Source of the DNA: Thermoleophilia bacterium
Lineage (GTDB): Bacteria; Actinomycetota; Thermoleophilia; Gaiellales; JAICJC01
Length of the DNA: 33,539 nt
Reading direction: 5' to 3'
Assembly (NCBI GenBank): GCA_025927685.1
Contig: JAICKX010000024.1
Location: 1-33,539 of the forward strand
This document shows, piece after piece, positions 3,292-9,158 of the stretch. Below the pieces are notes generated by a model that had not been told where the DNA came from, did not search any database, and saw nothing but the letters and a program-made list of their open reading frames with translations. The translations under genes were made by a program, and so were the position numbers. Positions within the stretch are counted from its first letter, which is position 1. The number at the start of each line of letters is the position of its first letter.

Positions 3292-3945
3292 CTACCCGAT
3301 CGAGACCGAGACGTTCCGCAGCTTGCCGATGTAGAAGTCCTCGCCGTTCGTGCCGGACGCGGGCTTCCAGCCGATCGTGAACGCGGTGATCTTGTGCGTG
3401 ATCGTCCCGATCTGGATCGCGGCGGTCTTCACGACGACGCCGTCCACCGTCAGGCTCATCTGGTTCGACGTCTTCGTGCACGTGATCGTGTGCCATCGGC
3501 CGTCGTTCAGCGCCGGGCCCGCGGTGATCTGCTTGTGCGCGAGCGACCCGGAGAAGAAGCACAGGGCGAGCGCCTTGCCGTTCTTGGGGAAGAGCTCGAT
3601 CTTGTACTGCTGCCCGGCCTTGGACGACCGCACGATGTCGAAGTCGAGCCCGCCCGTTCCGGGCATCGCCGTGGTGTTGATCTCCACCGTCGCCGAGACG
3701 TCCTTGGAGCCCGGGACGAGCGTCGCCGAGTAGGGCACGGTGATCCGGGAGTTGACGCTGGCCCCTCCGAAGAACGCGCTCGTCCCGTCGAACGTGACGT
3801 TCTGCGCCGTGCCGTTGTTCGACCCCACGGAGTCCTGCGCGTTCGTGGCGAGCGGCCATGCGGAGATCACGGCGGCCTGGGCGACCGCCGGCAGGACGAG
3901 GATCCCGGCAAGCGCCAGGACGGCGATTCTGAGACTGCGGACCAC
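3292..3945 (-). CDS. secreted LamG/concanavalin-A-like lectin-domain protein
   Basis: This 217-residue protein has a clear signal peptide (charged MVRSLR, hydrophobic core, cleavage after AQA near residue 24) and one beta-rich domain that looks like a LamG/ConA-like jelly roll. Typical blocks are WPLATNAQDSVGSNNGTAQN at the start, the central DGRWHTITCTKTSNQMSLTV hairpin, and a final strand KLRNVSVSIG. Such domains bind carbohydrate or act as exported adhesion modules. No enzyme domain is attached. The start is GTG 3945 with the G-rich site AGGGGGAG just upstream. It has its own promoter (see 3974-4003), so it can be expressed apart from the preceding minus-strand gene. The ligand cannot be told from sequence. 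Confidence 0.75.
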   Translation of the reverse strand: MVRSLRIAVLALAGILVLPAVAQAAVISAWPLATNAQDSVGSNNGTAQNVTFDGTSAFFGGASVNSRITVPYSATLVPGSKDVSATVEINTTAMPGTGGLDFDIVRSSKAGQQYKIELFPKNGKALALCFFSGSLAHKQITAGPALNDGRWHTITCTKTSNQMSLTVDGVVVKTAAIQIGTITHKITAFTIGWKPASGTNGEDFYIGKLRNVSVSIG

Positions 3946-4585: not shown

Positions 4586-5284
4586 CTATGCGCTCACCTG
4601 CTGCGACTTCACGTGCGCGATGTAGCCGCGCACGTCGGCCGCCGGCTCCGTATAGGCATCGCCCAGTGCCTGCTCCATCGCGTTCATGTAGCCGGTGAGC
4701 CACTCGGGCGAGTCGTAGTCGATCGCCTTCAGGAACTCGAGCGACGCCGCGAGGCGCATGTCGGCGATCGACGGCTCCGAGCCGCCGATGAACGTCTTGC
4801 CGTCGAGGAAGAACGAGTGGTAGACCTCGAGCGGCTCGGCGAGCGCCGTCTCGGCCGCGCGCTGGGCGTCGGCCTTCGCGTCGGCGTCGGCGTCCGACGA
4901 GCCCACCTCGCCCGGATACTGGGGGAAGCCGAGCGCCGGGTACGTCGCCCGCGCCAGGAGCGGGTACAGCGTCGCGAGCAGGTAGCACATCGCGCTGTCG
5001 ACCATGGCCCGCTCGGCCGGTTCGGTCGGGTAGAAGCGCGTGAGGCCGTGCTTGTTGCACAGGTACTGCATGATCGCGCAGCTCTCCCACATCGCGCCCT
5101 TCGGCAGGCCGGCCTCCTCGATCGTCGGCGTCAGGTGGGCGGGGTTCATCCGCAGGAACTCGGGGGAGGTCGTGACACCCCAGGAGTCGATCTCTTCGAA
5201 GTCGAGCCCGGCGGCCCGCACGAAGATCCGCGCTGTGAGGTTGTTCACGCTCGGCTTCAGGATGTGCATCGTGATCTCGGCCAT
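4586..5284 (-). CDS. glutathione S-transferase-family protein
   Basis: This 232-residue protein has a two-domain GST layout. The N-terminal thioredoxin-like half has NPAHLTPTIEE with the cis-proline (P53) and the glutathione-contacting E67-S68 pair in MWESCAIMQYL. The helical half contains FIGGSEPSIADMRLAASLEF, which matches the N-capping-box segment of GSTs. An Ala/Asp-rich linker (about residues 130-145) is unusual. Ser12 in KPSVNN could be the catalytic hydroxyl, as in theta-like enzymes. ATG 5284 has a strong GGAGGA site. Actinobacteria mostly use mycothiol, so the cofactor is uncertain. The gene follows the VOC gene on the same strand with 31 bases between, and the pair may act in detoxification or ring-cleavage chemistry. 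Confidence 0.8.
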   Translation of the reverse strand: MAEITMHILKPSVNNLTARIFVRAAGLDFEEIDSWGVTTSPEFLRMNPAHLTPTIEEAGLPKGAMWESCAIMQYLCNKHGLTRFYPTEPAERAMVDSAMCYLLATLYPLLARATYPALGFPQYPGEVGSSDADADAKADAQRAAETALAEPLEVYHSFFLDGKTFIGGSEPSIADMRLAASLEFLKAIDYDSPEWLTGYMNAMEQALGDAYTEPAADVRGYIAHVKSQQVSA

Positions 5285-5315: not shown

Positions 5316-5897
5316 TCAGTAGGGGTCTTTGGGCGATCGATCCTCGGAGAGCGACGGGCGCGACGCGCGCACCAGCTCCTCGATCGCGTCTGCCAGGTGC
5401 ACCTCGGCGATGTTCTCGTCGCCTCGGGCCACGCGGATCCGGTGCGCCTCTCGCAGCACGTCGGCGTGAGCGTACCCGAAGGGTGGCTCGAAGCGATAGG
5501 AGGCGAGCTCGATGAGGAGGCCCAGCGGGTCCTCGAAGTAGATCGAATCCATGAACCCGCGGTCCTTCACCCCGCTGTGGCGGATGCCGCGCTCGTCCAG
5601 CCGCTCGACGGCCTGGGCGAACACGGCCTGCGACAGCGAGAAGGCGACGTGGTGGACGCATCCCTGGTCGGTGGAGGTGCGCGCCGGGTCTCGAGCCCGC
5701 TCCTCGTCGGTGAAGACGGTGATCAGGCGGCCGTCGCCCGGATCGAAGTAGAGGTGGCTCTCCGAGGGGTTGTCGAGGTTCGGCTGCTCGAAGATGAACG
5801 GCATCCCGAGCACGCCCTCCCAGAAGTCGATCGAGGTCCGGCGGTCGGCGCCGACGAGGGTGATGTGGTGGACGCCCTGGCTCTGGAGCTTGCGCAT
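5316..5897 (-). CDS. VOC-family (glyoxalase/dioxygenase fold) protein
   Basis: This 193-residue protein carries paired beta-alpha-beta-beta-beta modules of the vicinal-oxygen-chelate superfamily. Likely metal ligands are H10 or H11 in GVHHITL, H82 or H83 in CVHHVAF and E130 in LLIELASY; H48 in SESHLYFD lies in the expected substrate pocket. FEDPLGLLIELASY is the typical closing motif of ring-cleaving dioxygenase and glyoxalase relatives. ATG 5897 was preferred over an in-frame start eight codons upstream because it begins right before the first VOC strand and lies seven bases after a -10-like hexamer. The C-terminal 45 residues are extra and charged. The substrate is unknown. It is probably co-transcribed with the GST gene. 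Confidence 0.8.
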   Translation of the reverse strand: MRKLQSQGVHHITLVGADRRTSIDFWEGVLGMPFIFEQPNLDNPSESHLYFDPGDGRLITVFTDEERARDPARTSTDQGCVHHVAFSLSQAVFAQAVERLDERGIRHSGVKDRGFMDSIYFEDPLGLLIELASYRFEPPFGYAHADVLREAHRIRVARGDENIAEVHLADAIEELVRASRPSLSEDRSPKDPY

Positions 5898-5904
5898 GCC
5901 GGCC

Positions 5905-5931
5905 AGTCTAAATGGGCGCACGGCTTTTCAA
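5905..5931 (-). promoter_or_regulatory. probable leaderless promoter of the VOC gene
   Basis: On the minus strand TTGAAA (5931-5926) is followed after a short 15-base spacer by TAGACT (5910-5905). Seven bases later comes ATG 5897. No ribosome site is present between them, so the mRNA would start at or next to the start codon. Confidence 0.45.
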
Positions 5932-5986: not shown

Positions 5987-6886
5987 ATGCGGTTCAGGCT
6001 GGCCGGGATAGTGGCGGGCGTGGCCCTCCTTGTCACGCTCACGACCGGGACGGCGAACGCCTCCAAGGGGGCGTACTTCGGTACGGCCGTCGAGATGGCA
6101 CCCGGCGAGAATTCCTACGACGCGCTGCGGCAGCTCGAGCACGCCGTCGGCCGGCACTTCCACATCCTGCGGCTGTACCGCTCGCTCAACGACGTGACGT
6201 TCACGGGTGCGGGGCCCGAGGCGATGCACGCCCGCGGGCTTCCCATGTACCTGAACGTGAGCTCGGCGATCAGCAAGCGGTGCGTCTCGTGGCGCTCCGT
6301 GGCGAACGGCCGTTACAACCGCTATCTGCGCTCGATCGCGAAGAAGGTGAAGCGCTACCACTACCGCGTCTACTTCTCGTGGAACCACGAGATGCAGGGC
6401 ACCTGCAACACCGGCACCGCCCGGGACTACCGGGCGAGCTACAAGCGCGTGCGGCGGGCGTTCAGGCGCCGGCACGTCAGGAACGCCGTCTGGGTGTGGA
6501 CGGTCGCGGCCGGGAACTTCAACCACAACCCGCGGAGGGCGGCGAAGTACCTGCCGAAGCACGTCGACCTGATCGGGGTCGACGGCTACAACCGCTCCGG
6601 CGAGTGGCGCTCGGTGAGGGAGATCTTCGGTGCAGCGCACAGGTTCGCGTCCAGGCGCCACATCCGACTCTTCGTCGGCGAGATCGGATGCGCCGAGGAT
6701 GGGAGCGACCCGGATGCCAAGGGCCGGTGGATCGCGAACGCGTTCGACACCTTCAAGACGTGGAACGTGGCCGCCGTCCTCTGGGCGAACGTGGACCGGA
6801 GCGAAGGGAACTACCGCGTCGACACGTCATCGGCCGCGCTCTCGGCCTACAGGCAGGCCGGCGGCATGCGCTTCTACGGCCGCTAG
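5987..6886 (+). CDS. secreted GH26-like glycoside hydrolase
   Basis: This 299-residue enzyme has a signal peptide (residues 1-25, cleavage after ANA) and a TIM-barrel pattern like that of family 26 beta-mannanases and related glucanases. The likely acid/base is E135 in FSWNHEMQG, and the likely nucleophile is E232 in FVGEIGC; both sit after predicted beta strands as in clan GH-A. VDGYN and AAVLWANVD fit late barrel strands. It would cleave a beta-linked polysaccharide outside the cell. ATG 5987 gives a clean signal peptide; a start 25 codons earlier would add a non-signal extension overlapping the divergent VOC promoter. Its stop overlaps the convergent gene's stop in CTAG. The polysaccharide is not identifiable, and no carbohydrate-binding module is present. 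Confidence 0.7.
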   Translation: MRFRLAGIVAGVALLVTLTTGTANASKGAYFGTAVEMAPGENSYDALRQLEHAVGRHFHILRLYRSLNDVTFTGAGPEAMHARGLPMYLNVSSAISKRCVSWRSVANGRYNRYLRSIAKKVKRYHYRVYFSWNHEMQGTCNTGTARDYRASYKRVRRAFRRRHVRNAVWVWTVAAGNFNHNPRRAAKYLPKHVDLIGVDGYNRSGEWRSVREIFGAAHRFASRRHIRLFVGEIGCAEDGSDPDAKGRWIANAFDTFKTWNVAAVLWANVDRSEGNYRVDTSSAALSAYRQAGGMRFYGR

Positions 6887-7644
6887 ATGCGGGCGCCGCG
6901 CTCGACGTCGCGGAAGAGCGCCATCCCCAGGCCGCGCGCCATCTCCTCGTCCAGATGGGCGACCAGGCCGGCAGTTCGGGCCAGGAGCGCCATCCCGCGC
7001 ACGATGCGGGCCGGGAAGCCGAGATCCGCGAGCGCCGCACCCGCGACGCCCGCCCCGTTGATCGGAAGCGCCTTTCCCGTCGCCTGGCGGTGGGCGGCGG
7101 CGACGAGCTCGAGCGCCCGCAGGTGCGGCCCCTCGAGCCCGTGCTCCCGCGCGATCGCGTAGATCCGCTCCGTGCGCGGGTCGCCGGCCTTGTGGACGGG
7201 GTGACCGAGCCCCGGGATGCGTCCGCCGGCGCCGGTGCGGGCCCTGACGGCCTCCGCCGCGGCGGCTTCCAGCCCGTCGTCCCCGCAGCCGGCGACGACC
7301 GCGTCCAGGAAGACGGCCGTGTCCTCGACGACGCCCAGGAACACCGATCCCGCGCCGAGGAGGCCGGCGGCGACCGCTCCCTGGAGCGACTCGGGCGCGC
7401 CCGTATGCGTGAGCCGGGCGGCCAGCACGGTGGGCGTGAGGCCGTGCTCGGCGAGCGACACGAGCACCGCGTCGAGAAGCGCCGTCTCCTGCGGCGTCGG
7501 CTCGCGGCCGCGGACGAGCAGGAACGTCAGCTCCGTGAACGTGACCCTGCCCATGAGCTCCGTGGCGAGGTCGCGGCCGCGGACCGTGATCGAGTCGGCC
7601 CCGGCCCCGCCGACGTCGGTGTGCAGCCAGTGGCGCTCGCTCAT
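6883..7644 (-). CDS. citrate-synthase-fold protein, citryl-CoA lyase-like
   Basis: This 253-residue protein corresponds to the short, C-terminal-type citrate synthase fold usually annotated as citryl-CoA lyase. IPGLGHPVHKAGDPR (143-157) matches the conserved active-site loop, with H148 aligned to the oxaloacetate-binding His. By hand alignment two other catalytic positions look changed: the first His region reads GSVFLGVVED (F102 where His is usual), and the NVDG-like segment reads INGAG (A198 where Asp is usual). Such a protein may bind acyl-CoA but use other chemistry. It is translationally coupled to the acyl-CoA ligase (ATGA overlap at 7641-7644), so the two probably handle the same CoA ester. 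Its stop overlaps the GH26 gene's stop by four bases. Citryl-CoA cleavage remains the default guess with modest confidence. Confidence 0.65.
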   Translation of the reverse strand: MSERHWLHTDVGGAGADSITVRGRDLATELMGRVTFTELTFLLVRGREPTPQETALLDAVLVSLAEHGLTPTVLAARLTHTGAPESLQGAVAAGLLGAGSVFLGVVEDTAVFLDAVVAGCGDDGLEAAAAEAVRARTGAGGRIPGLGHPVHKAGDPRTERIYAIAREHGLEGPHLRALELVAAAHRQATGKALPINGAGVAGAALADLGFPARIVRGMALLARTAGLVAHLDEEMARGLGMALFRDVERGARI

Positions 7645-9158
7645 CCTGCCCTCCGCACGCGTGGGTCGAAGTCCGTCTCGGCGCCGGTCCGCTCCCGCGG
7701 CAGCTCATGCTTCGCGATCCGGCCGGTCGGCGTGTGCGGCAGCTCGGCCACCGCTTCCAGGTAGCGCGGCACCTTGAACGCCGTGAGCCGCGCCGCAGCG
7801 GCGTCGCGGATCGACGCCAGGTCGGCCGTCGCCGGATCGGCCACGGCCACGAATCCCTTGATCTCCTCCTCGCTCAGCTCCGAGGGCACGCCGACGACCG
7901 CCGCCTCGGTCACGTCGGGATGGGAGCAGAGCGCCTCCTCGATCTCGGCCGGGGCCACGTTTTCGCCGCGGCGCCGGATGACCTCCTTGCGGCGGCCGAC
8001 GAACGTGTACGTCCCGTCCGGGCTCCGGCGCACGAGATCGCCGGTCCGCAGCCATCCGCCCGGGCCGACCGCTTCGGCGGTCTCGTCGGGCATTTCCCAG
8101 TAGCCGCGCATGACGGCCGGGTTCCGCAGCTCGAGCTCGCCCACGCCGCCGTCGGCGAGCTCCGTTCCGTCGAGCATGACCCGCGCCTCGTTCACCGTTC
8201 CGAGCCGGGGATGCTGGCGAACGGTCCCGAGCGTGCCGAACGGCCGCGAACCGTGCGGCCAGATCGTCCCGTACGGCGACTCCGAGAGCGCGTAGCCGCA
8301 GACGATTCGAAGGCCGAAACGCTCCTCCATCTCGAGTTGACGGGCCTTTGTGGGAGCCGGGCCCGTGTAACATAGGCGAAGCGGCGTTTCGGCGTCGTCT
8401 TCCCGTTCCGGCTGGCGCATCAGGATCTCGAGCATGGCGCCAATCGCGTTGAACTCCGTGGCGCCGTGGCGGCGGGCGGAATCCAGGAACGTGCTGGCCG
8501 AGAACCGGGGCAGGAGCACGAGCCCAGCCCGGGCGGCGATCGATCCGAGCACCGAATAGGCGGGCGCGTTGATGTGGAAGAGCGGGAGCGACGTCATGAG
8601 CCGGTCATCCTCTCCGAGCTGCATCCACCACGGGAAGCCCTCGCCGGCCATCGCGTACGCGCGGTGGGTCTGCGCCACGAGCTTCGACCGTCCGGTGGTG
8701 CCGGAGGTCGGGATGAGCGCCGCGACGTCGTCGGCCCCGGGCCGCCGGGCCGGTGCCGCCTCGGCCGGCTCGGCGTAGAGGGCGGCCACGTCGGCCGTCG
8801 TCGCGCCGGCCTCGCGGACCGCGGCCGGTGCCTCGGCGTCGGTGACGACGAGCCGCGGCCGTACCTGTCCGATGAGCGCCTGGAGCTCGTGCTCGCCCGC
8901 GAGCGGGTTCACGGCGACGACGATCGCGCCCGAGCACGTCGTCGCCAGCCAGGCGAAGAGGTACTCCGGAGTGTTCCGGGCCGTGACCAGCACCAGGTCG
9001 CCGGGGCTGACGCCCAGCCGCCCCATGGCGGAGGCGGCCCGCTCCACCAGCGCCTGGGCCTCGGAGAACGTGAACGTGCGGCCGTCGGTGCGCAGCCAGA
9101 CCCTGGAAGGGGCTGCGGCGACGGCCTCGTCGAAGAGTTCGGGGATGGTGTCCGGCAC
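7641..9158 (-). CDS. acyl-CoA ligase (ANL superfamily, CaiC-like)
   Basis: This 505-residue AMP-forming ligase carries the full motif set: PTSGTTGRSK (about 150-159, phosphate loop), GYALSE (about 288), GWLRTGDL (about 368), the hinge GRRKEVIRRRGENVAP (about 387) and PTGRIAK with catalytic K483. The RRRGENV form is typical of crotonobetaine/carnitine-CoA and related ligases. It activates a carboxylic acid to acyl-AMP and then to a CoA thioester. The frame stays open upstream to 9359, but conserved sequence begins at VPDTIPELFDEAV, so GTG 9158 was chosen; no convincing ribosome site precedes it and the start is uncertain. It overlaps the citryl-CoA lyase-like gene by four bases. A citrate- or dicarboxylate-like substrate is inferred only from that neighbour. 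Confidence 0.85.
   Translation of the reverse strand: MPDTIPELFDEAVAAAPSRVWLRTDGRTFTFSEAQALVERAASAMGRLGVSPGDLVLVTARNTPEYLFAWLATTCSGAIVVAVNPLAGEHELQALIGQVRPRLVVTDAEAPAAVREAGATTADVAALYAEPAEAAPARRPGADDVAALIPTSGTTGRSKLVAQTHRAYAMAGEGFPWWMQLGEDDRLMTSLPLFHINAPAYSVLGSIAARAGLVLLPRFSASTFLDSARRHGATEFNAIGAMLEILMRQPEREDDAETPLRLCYTGPAPTKARQLEMEERFGLRIVCGYALSESPYGTIWPHGSRPFGTLGTVRQHPRLGTVNEARVMLDGTELADGGVGELELRNPAVMRGYWEMPDETAEAVGPGGWLRTGDLVRRSPDGTYTFVGRRKEVIRRRGENVAPAEIEEALCSHPDVTEAAVVGVPSELSEEEIKGFVAVADPATADLASIRDAAAARLTAFKVPRYLEAVAELPHTPTGRIAKHELPRERTGAETDFDPRVRRAG

Follow-up and report, generated by a model that had tools for sequence, protein, structure and literature searches.

Citrate synthase, the citryl-CoA lyase of Hydrogenobacter thermophilus (Ccl; solved as 6hxp) and the citryl-CoA lyase module of ATP-citrate lyase (ACLY; here from Chlorobium and human) are the described relatives with which we compare a protein encoded beside an acyl-CoA ligase in a 33,539-nucleotide stretch of DNA from a Thermoleophilia bacterium (contig JAICKX010000024.1; this whole stretch is the window). 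In citrate synthase, the residues that match positions 102 and 198 of this protein activate acetyl-coenzyme A (acetyl-CoA) by deprotonating it, and those that the protein retains bind the keto acid. Citryl-CoA lyase usually has a partner of the succinyl-CoA-synthetase type; in the window, such a coupled gene is absent and the coupled gene is instead an ANL ligase (PF00501). ACLY joins the lyase module, in one protein, to a CoA-ligase domain from a different family. By title or abstract, we found no open-access paper treating the function of this protein's family, and the open-access papers listed for citryl-CoA lyase were, by title, mostly on genomes, metagenomes and carbon fixation; none was found for maleylacetyl-CoA, fumarylacetyl-CoA or 3-oxoadipyl-CoA hydrolase. 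The fold and the superfamily are known, and the active site, the partners and the probable position in a pathway are new.

The original prediction had described an ATGA-overlapping pair of ligase and lyase-fold genes at 6883-9158 with Phe102, Ala198 and His148, and we found all of this as described, with both genes on the minus strand. The ligase probably tags an acid with coenzyme A (CoA). Its partner, which is related to citrate lyase but has a remodelled active site (hereafter the CCL-like protein), probably splits the product. Tentatively, and with a little less than even confidence, we propose that the pair forms a CoA-dependent exit of an aromatic ring-cleavage pathway, in which the ligase would make a beta-keto-dicarboxylyl-CoA and the CCL-like protein would cleave it. 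Many related gene pairs lie beside ring-breakdown genes, which is a hint that these pathways may have a final step not yet described. The features of the pair are as follows.

6883..7644, minus strand: CCL-like protein (citryl-CoA-lyase fold, Ala for the conserved Asp), 253 amino acids
7641..9158, minus strand: ANL acyl-CoA ligase, 505 amino acids from the GTG at 9158, stop codon 7641-7643
7641..7644, minus strand: ATGA overlap of the lyase start (ATG, 7644-7642) and the ligase stop (TGA, 7643-7641)
7444..7446, minus strand: codon of His67, matching the DHG-motif His of Ccl and Chlorobium ACLY
7339..7341, minus strand: codon of Phe102, which is Phe in Chlorobium and human ACLY and His in Hydrogenobacter Ccl
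7201..7203, minus strand: codon of His148, in the PGLGH motif
7192..7194, minus strand: codon of His151, which is Tyr or Lys in Ccl and ACLY
7051..7053, minus strand: codon of Ala198, which stands in for the conserved Asp (human ACLY D1026)

The CCL-like protein keeps the citryl-CoA lyase fold and lacks the conserved Asp

The ligase scores over the Pfam cut-offs for both ANL domains (PF00501, 195.5 bits; PF13193, 58.5 bits). Its sequence reads PTSGTTGRSK and PTGRIAK, which we take to be ANL-type motifs, and the C-terminal Lys is retained; an alternative in-frame start is possible as far upstream as 9359. Among solved structures, malonyl-CoA synthetase and oxalate-CoA ligase come nearest (E about 1e-48), a likeness that is no proof of the substrate.

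The CCL-like protein matches Pfam Citrate_synt with 83.1 bits (cut-off 27) and the NCBIfam model NF004868, named 'citryl-CoA lyase', with 286.7 bits (cut-off 193), and its best solved relative by sequence is Hydrogenobacter Ccl (6hxp, E 1.4e-30). The AlphaFold2 model (pLDDT 94.1) superimposes on 6hxp with a Z score of 26.9 and a root-mean-square deviation of 2.2 over 239 residues at 32% identity, and on the ACLY modules of Chlorobium and human with Z scores of 21.7-24.4. As in citryl-CoA lyase, the fold is that of the large domain of citrate synthase, of about 250 amino acids; in contrast to citrate synthase, the protein is not full-length, and its match begins at profile position 154 of 357. 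The original prediction had asked for a structure-based alignment with Ccl: the structure comparison answers this request as far as the fold is concerned, and the residue equivalences given below come from a sequence alignment of the CCL-like protein, Hydrogenobacter Ccl, Chlorobium ACLY and human ACLY, in which the human fragment begins after the His67 position.

In this alignment, the CCL-like protein retains His67, His148, Arg157, Asn196 and Arg223, so that both active-site His residues (DHG and GxGH motifs) are in place; we take His67 to be H900 of human ACLY, by motif. It thus shares with Ccl the whole fold and the equivalents of His67, His148, Arg157 and Arg223, and with the ACLY modules the fold, Phe at position 102, the GxGH His, Arg157 and Arg223. 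Ala198, within NGAG, stands opposite the Asp of the NVDG motif kept by Ccl, Chlorobium ACLY and human ACLY. The CCL-like protein further differs from Ccl in carrying Phe102 for His and His151 for Tyr, and from citrate synthase in carrying Phe and Ala at the equivalents of the residues that we take to be His274 and Asp375.

It had been predicted that catalytic residues are missing, with Phe102 as the lost first His. This holds for Ala198; we rejected Phe102 as a defect because Phe is also found in both ATP-citrate lyases, and the loss is true only against citrate synthase and Ccl. An alignment that places functional His and Asp residues in the site, named beforehand as evidence to the contrary, was thus obtained for His67 and His148, and the Asp is absent. 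Set against citryl-CoA lyase modules that work, the site differs at the Asp position only. As a guess from the alignment, His151 may be a candidate extra catalytic residue.

Retention of the keto-acid binders with loss of the residues that deprotonate acetyl-CoA would fit a reaction in which acetyl-CoA leaves unactivated. In a published study of human ACLY (PMC10115795), the D1026A enzyme accumulates citryl-CoA and stops forming acetyl-CoA; the study itself argues for an allosteric role of the citryl-CoA lyase module. The CCL-like protein is a natural version of this mutant, which offers a direct way to test the need for the Asp in the citrate synthase fold and also how this fold handles a CoA ester without it.

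The altered site is conserved within the family

Conservation was first counted among sequences brought in by the family model NF004868 alone, so that the residue counts are not given by construction; we used 23 of its 28 hits, leaving out L002 and L003 (citrate synthases of the window's own genome) and L019, L024 and L028 (partial). We found that H67, H148, H151, R157, N196 and R223 are invariant (23/23). At the Asp position, 15 sequences have Ala, 2 have Thr, 1 has Ser and 5 have Asp, which leaves 18/23 without Asp. The family (PRK06224.1-5) mixes Asp, Ala, Ser and Thr forms, and we know of no experimentally tested function behind its name. Decay of the protein was rejected, because the His and Arg residues are kept across the family hits; judged from the alignment, the site is a conserved alternative. 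Of 296 sampled genomes of the phylum, 22 contain NF004868, and one or more Asp-less forms are present in 17 of those 22; in the class of the window, a family member is found at E 1e-40 in 38 of 399 genomes, with the forms read for part of these.

A second set of 81 close loci consists of the window and 80 loci from a peptide-pattern scan (the best 80 of 313 confirmed relatives). The same six residues are present in 81/81, and Ala198 in 79/81 (Thr in 2, among them L097 from Herbaspirillum), figures that are partly given by construction, since the scan required one of two patterns with NGAG or PGLGHPxH and so inflates the counts at 148, 151 and 196-199. Phe102 is found in 78/81, with Tyr in 3. 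Genes in these loci were called with a home-made codon model, and the lyases of L051, L052, L056 and L082 were translated straight from the match. A separate alignment holds 14 rows chosen for the NGAG form. A tree of 93 rows places 63 of them in a clade that contains no ligase-type row and is nested in a ligase-type background, with the long rows L006, L015, L023 and L027 placed unsurely; the window pairs with L029, a Thermoleophilia metagenome-assembled genome in the window's genus.

CoA-ester-forming genes are coupled to the CCL-like gene

We counted the nearest same-strand upstream gene within 300 bases in the 81 close loci and found that a CoA-ester-forming gene lies directly upstream of the CCL-like gene in 73, of which 58 encode a type III CoA-transferase and 15 an ANL ligase; the remaining 8 have another upstream gene or none. 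The upstream gene overlaps the CCL-like gene in 62 of these 73 loci, and a 4-base overlap (ATGA or GTGA) is present in 36/81 (27 CoA-transferase, 9 ligase). The two upstream families are unrelated to each other. Coupling of CoA activation to the altered-site lyase is therefore supported as a conserved feature. It sets the CCL-like protein apart from Hydrogenobacter Ccl, as its partner is an ANL ligase or a CoA-transferase. A new CoA-ester pathway, as had been predicted, is upheld to the extent that this coupling recurs (58/81 and 15/81, and a PaaK-type ligase in 13/18 loci of the sister subfamily described below); the tricarboxylate offered as its substrate is not, because the readable neighbours point to beta-keto dicarboxylates from ring cleavage.

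As a separate observation, a further lyase form (NAAG) in L175:5881-8402 starts at the end of a 577-residue gene whose product, by eye, resembles a thiamine-diphosphate enzyme and not a CoA-forming one.

Aromatic ring-cleavage genes surround many of the pairs

Among the 15 ligase-type loci, L036 (Amycolatopsis jejuensis) has the gene order CatC, CatA, CatB, PcaD, ligase, CCL-like gene. The 3-oxoadipate enol-lactonase (PcaD) scores above its cut-off (265.7 bits, cut-off 255.85); muconolactone isomerase (CatC, 119.3 bits, cut-off 130.6), catechol 1,2-dioxygenase (CatA, 266.2 bits, cut-off 404.4) and muconate cycloisomerase (CatB, 179.7 bits, cut-off 334.95) score below theirs. L034 (Planosporangium) has the same gene clusters in the same order, as judged by shared clusters. 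We found no thiolase among the operon genes scanned in L034 and L036. These operons form a whole catechol-to-3-oxoadipate route, with the ligase and the CCL-like gene in place of the CoA-transferase and thiolase. The likeness to PcaIJ and PcaF thus lies in the proposed job (CoA activation and acetyl-CoA release) and in the place in these two operons; the folds are unrelated, and the CCL-like protein has the citrate synthase fold, not the thiolase fold.

Two Herbaspirillum loci (L097 and L107) carry genes, mostly read by eye, for an SDR, a MaoC-like hydratase, the CCL-like protein, an enoyl-CoA hydratase, a transporter and the ligase, with no thiolase among the operon genes so read; these loci suggest a wider range of beta-keto substrates. 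In L115 and L121, the CCL-like gene and the ligase are accompanied by a two-domain VOC protein (scanned in L121).

In the 58 CoA-transferase loci, each counted over its whole length of up to about 17 kb, we found an IclR regulator in 52, an amidohydrolase in 42, LigB in 39, a LigA-like protein in 39, an MDR reductase in 25 and an intradiol dioxygenase in 7. The IclR gene of L101 (Herbidospora daliensis) falls just under the PcaR/PcaU/PobR cut-off (276.1 against 284.75 bits). The relatives of LigB include protocatechuate 4,5- and gallate dioxygenases, and L100 is the only intradiol-dioxygenase locus that also has LigB. Apart from those of L034 and L036, there are nine intradiol dioxygenases, which share 67-100% identity with the L062 enzyme. 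Among solved structures, the L062 enzyme is closest to hydroxyquinol 1,2-dioxygenase (1tmx, E 2.5e-80); the product of hydroxyquinol 1,2-dioxygenase is maleylacetate. Three Nesterenkonia loci contain an iron-type dehydrogenase, for which maleylacetate reductase (3w5s) is the third-best solved relative (E 1.1e-58), the two better ones being named alcohol dehydrogenase.

L101:4500-11000 is one example of a cluster that recurs among the CoA-transferase loci and consists of CoA-transferase, CCL-like gene, LigB and LigA-like protein. An MDR reductase and a PRK08204-type amidohydrolase often accompany this cluster, which has the appearance of an aromatic pathway. In the L101 example, neither Pfam nor NCBIfam matches the LigA-like protein at E 1e-5.

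A sister subfamily shares the neighbours of the window pair

We opened 34 regions around family members in the class of the window: 12 hold the NGAG form, and 18 hold a sister form in which Ser or Ala takes the place of the Asp (NVSM, NVAM, NISM and the like). The other 4 have further forms, among them the Asp-keeping L128 (NIDG). In these 18 sister loci, some of which are cut by contig ends, a PaaK-type CoA ligase lies near the lyase in 13, and homologues of two further window genes recur: a VOC protein 74-85% identical to that of the window in 11/18, and a GST-fold protein 67-74% identical to that of the window in 9/18. The window genes are as follows.

5316..5921, minus strand: VOC protein, likely true start ATG 5897; nearest solved structure the ring-cleaving dioxygenase MhqO
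4586..5284, minus strand: GST-fold protein, weakly like maleylacetoacetate isomerase (MaiA)

Because these homologues recur near the sister lyases, the VOC and GST-fold proteins are likely partners of the ligase and CCL-like pair. The window VOC protein is similar to MhqO (E 3.4e-14) and to 2,6-dichloro-p-hydroquinone 1,2-dioxygenase (E 3e-5), and the GST-fold proteins of the window and of L160 score 26.9 and 37.3 bits against the MaiA model (cut-off 171). A ring-opening VOC protein with a MaiA-like GST would recall the homogentisate-type route of dioxygenase, MaiA and fumarylacetoacetate hydrolase, although the VOC and GST similarities are weak and the hydrolase would be replaced by the CoA ligase and the CCL-like protein.

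Proposed role of the pair and alternative explanations

Catechol, hydroxyquinol and p-diols yield, after ring fission, a beta-keto dicarboxylate (maleylacetate or 3-oxoadipate), and a substrate of this kind is suggested because the readable contexts share ring fission to such acids. In the proposed pathway, the ligase (in relatives, the type III CoA-transferase or PaaK-type ligase) would form the CoA ester of the ring-fission product, most likely maleylacetate, its trans isomer or 3-oxoadipate. The CCL-like protein would hold the keto-acid end through His67, His148, Arg157 and Arg223 and carry out a retro-Claisen cleavage between C2 and C3, with water or CoA as the presumed nucleophile. This would release acetyl-CoA together with a C4 dicarboxylate, namely fumarate, maleate or succinate (or its CoA ester), so that the CCL-like protein would take the place of the thiolase of the beta-ketoadipate pathway or of fumarylacetoacetate hydrolase. 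The window's VOC protein would be the ring-opening enzyme, and its GST-fold protein the isomerase of the product. The gene coupling, residue conservation, fold and neighbourhood are observed; the substrate, nucleophile, products and VOC and GST roles are what we infer from them. A wider claim is possible and, on balance, doubtful: that a citrate-synthase-fold enzyme with an Asp-to-Ala change is a CoA-dependent cleaver of beta-keto dicarboxylates in Actinobacteria and some Proteobacteria, fed by three types of CoA-forming enzyme (FadD-like ligase, PaaK-like ligase and type III CoA-transferase) and replacing the beta-ketoadipate thiolase and the fumarylacetoacetate-hydrolase-type enzyme of p-diol routes.

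Several findings weigh against the proposed role. The loci counted are related to each other and not independent. Only 2/15 ligase-type loci lie in a cat operon; most ligase-type loci lack a clear aromatic operon, and the window is one of them. The proposal does not explain how LigAB and the amidohydrolase (42/58) would supply a beta-keto acid. L128 (the same as L027) keeps the Asp, as NIDG, and also adjoins a CoA-transferase, so the coupling does not depend on loss of the Asp. Without the Asp, it is not obvious how the acetyl-CoA enolate is protonated. In the window, models for glyoxalase I-like and fosfomycin-resistance proteins match the VOC protein about as weakly as dioxygenases do, a plus-strand gene (5987-6883) separates the CCL-like gene from the VOC and GST genes, and no such VOC or GST gene is found near the lyase of L029, the closest relative. 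Thiolase-family genes (E 1e-50) are present in 36/36 CCL-like genomes tested (a selection of those at hand), of which 3 pass the PcaF cut-off. An ordinary pca operon is also present in the genome of the window (L109, read by eye, with PcaD by scan); it includes pcaJ and the first part of pcaI and is cut by a contig end. These genes indicate that the proposed route would be additional and not the sole one. We accordingly did not uphold a genome-wide replacement of missing PcaIJ and PcaF by the CCL-like protein.

The model TIGR02429 detects no PcaI in 7 of the 36 genomes, which is no claim of absence, as the model misses this subfamily; five of the seven (L109 and L111-L114) have by eye a CoA-transferase gene pair in a pca operon that this NCBIfam model misses.

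Of the alternatives, the one that survives best, although we consider it unlikely, is that the CCL-like protein acts on the CoA ester of a ring-cleavage product without breaking a C-C bond, as a thioesterase, decarboxylase, hydratase or isomerase. It would account for the replacement of both positions that activate acetyl-CoA in citrate synthase (F102 and A198) with the acid-binding His and Arg residues remaining; however, the L036 neighbours already reach 3-oxoadipate, which leaves cleavage as the remaining step, and the relatives of this fold make or break C-C bonds.

A retro-aldol reaction on the CoA ester of a citrate-like tertiary alcohol, such as 4-carboxy-4-hydroxy-2-oxoadipate from a gallate-type route opened by LigAB, would agree with the fold and His pair of citryl-CoA lyases, with the kinship of LigB to protocatechuate 4,5- and gallate dioxygenases and with the coupling of the Asp-keeping L128 to a CoA-transferase. 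We consider it improbable, as the hydroxyquinol and catechol contexts yield no tertiary alcohols and the Asp is Ala, a change that lets citryl-CoA build up and stops acetyl-CoA formation in ACLY D1026A according to PMC10115795, although that study itself argues for an allosteric role.

The original prediction had also allowed for a binding or regulatory subunit. Loss of the Asp would suit a non-catalytic partner of the CoA-forming enzyme, but the invariance of the putative active-site residues H67, H148, H151, N196, R157 and R223 in 23/23 family hits and the descent of the partners from unrelated families, which makes a fixed protein-protein role unlikely, render this very improbable. That the CCL-like protein is an ordinary citryl-CoA lyase, as its score of 286.7 bits over the NF004868 cut-off of 193 would have it, is hardly credible given the replaced Asp, a partner that is an ANL ligase and not the usual succinyl-CoA-synthetase-like citryl-CoA synthetase, and readable contexts of aromatic catabolism. 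Asp-less proteins annotated as citryl-CoA lyase through NF004868 are probably mislabelled and may carry out a different reaction in aromatic catabolism.

Other genes near the lyases

The product of the plus-strand gene at 5987-6883 of the window begins, by eye, like a signal peptide and is matched by neither Pfam nor NCBIfam; the gene has the appearance of an insertion into the module. A protein with a laminin-G/concanavalin-like domain is encoded at 3295-3945 on the minus strand. Genes that resemble the cobalamin-independent methionine synthase catalytic domain recur near the CCL-like gene or the sister form: one was scanned (L162:6312-7295), and five were recognised by similarity (L168:10185-11207, L170:6183-7274, L121:8769-9833, L055:5375-6409 and L072:8219-9256).

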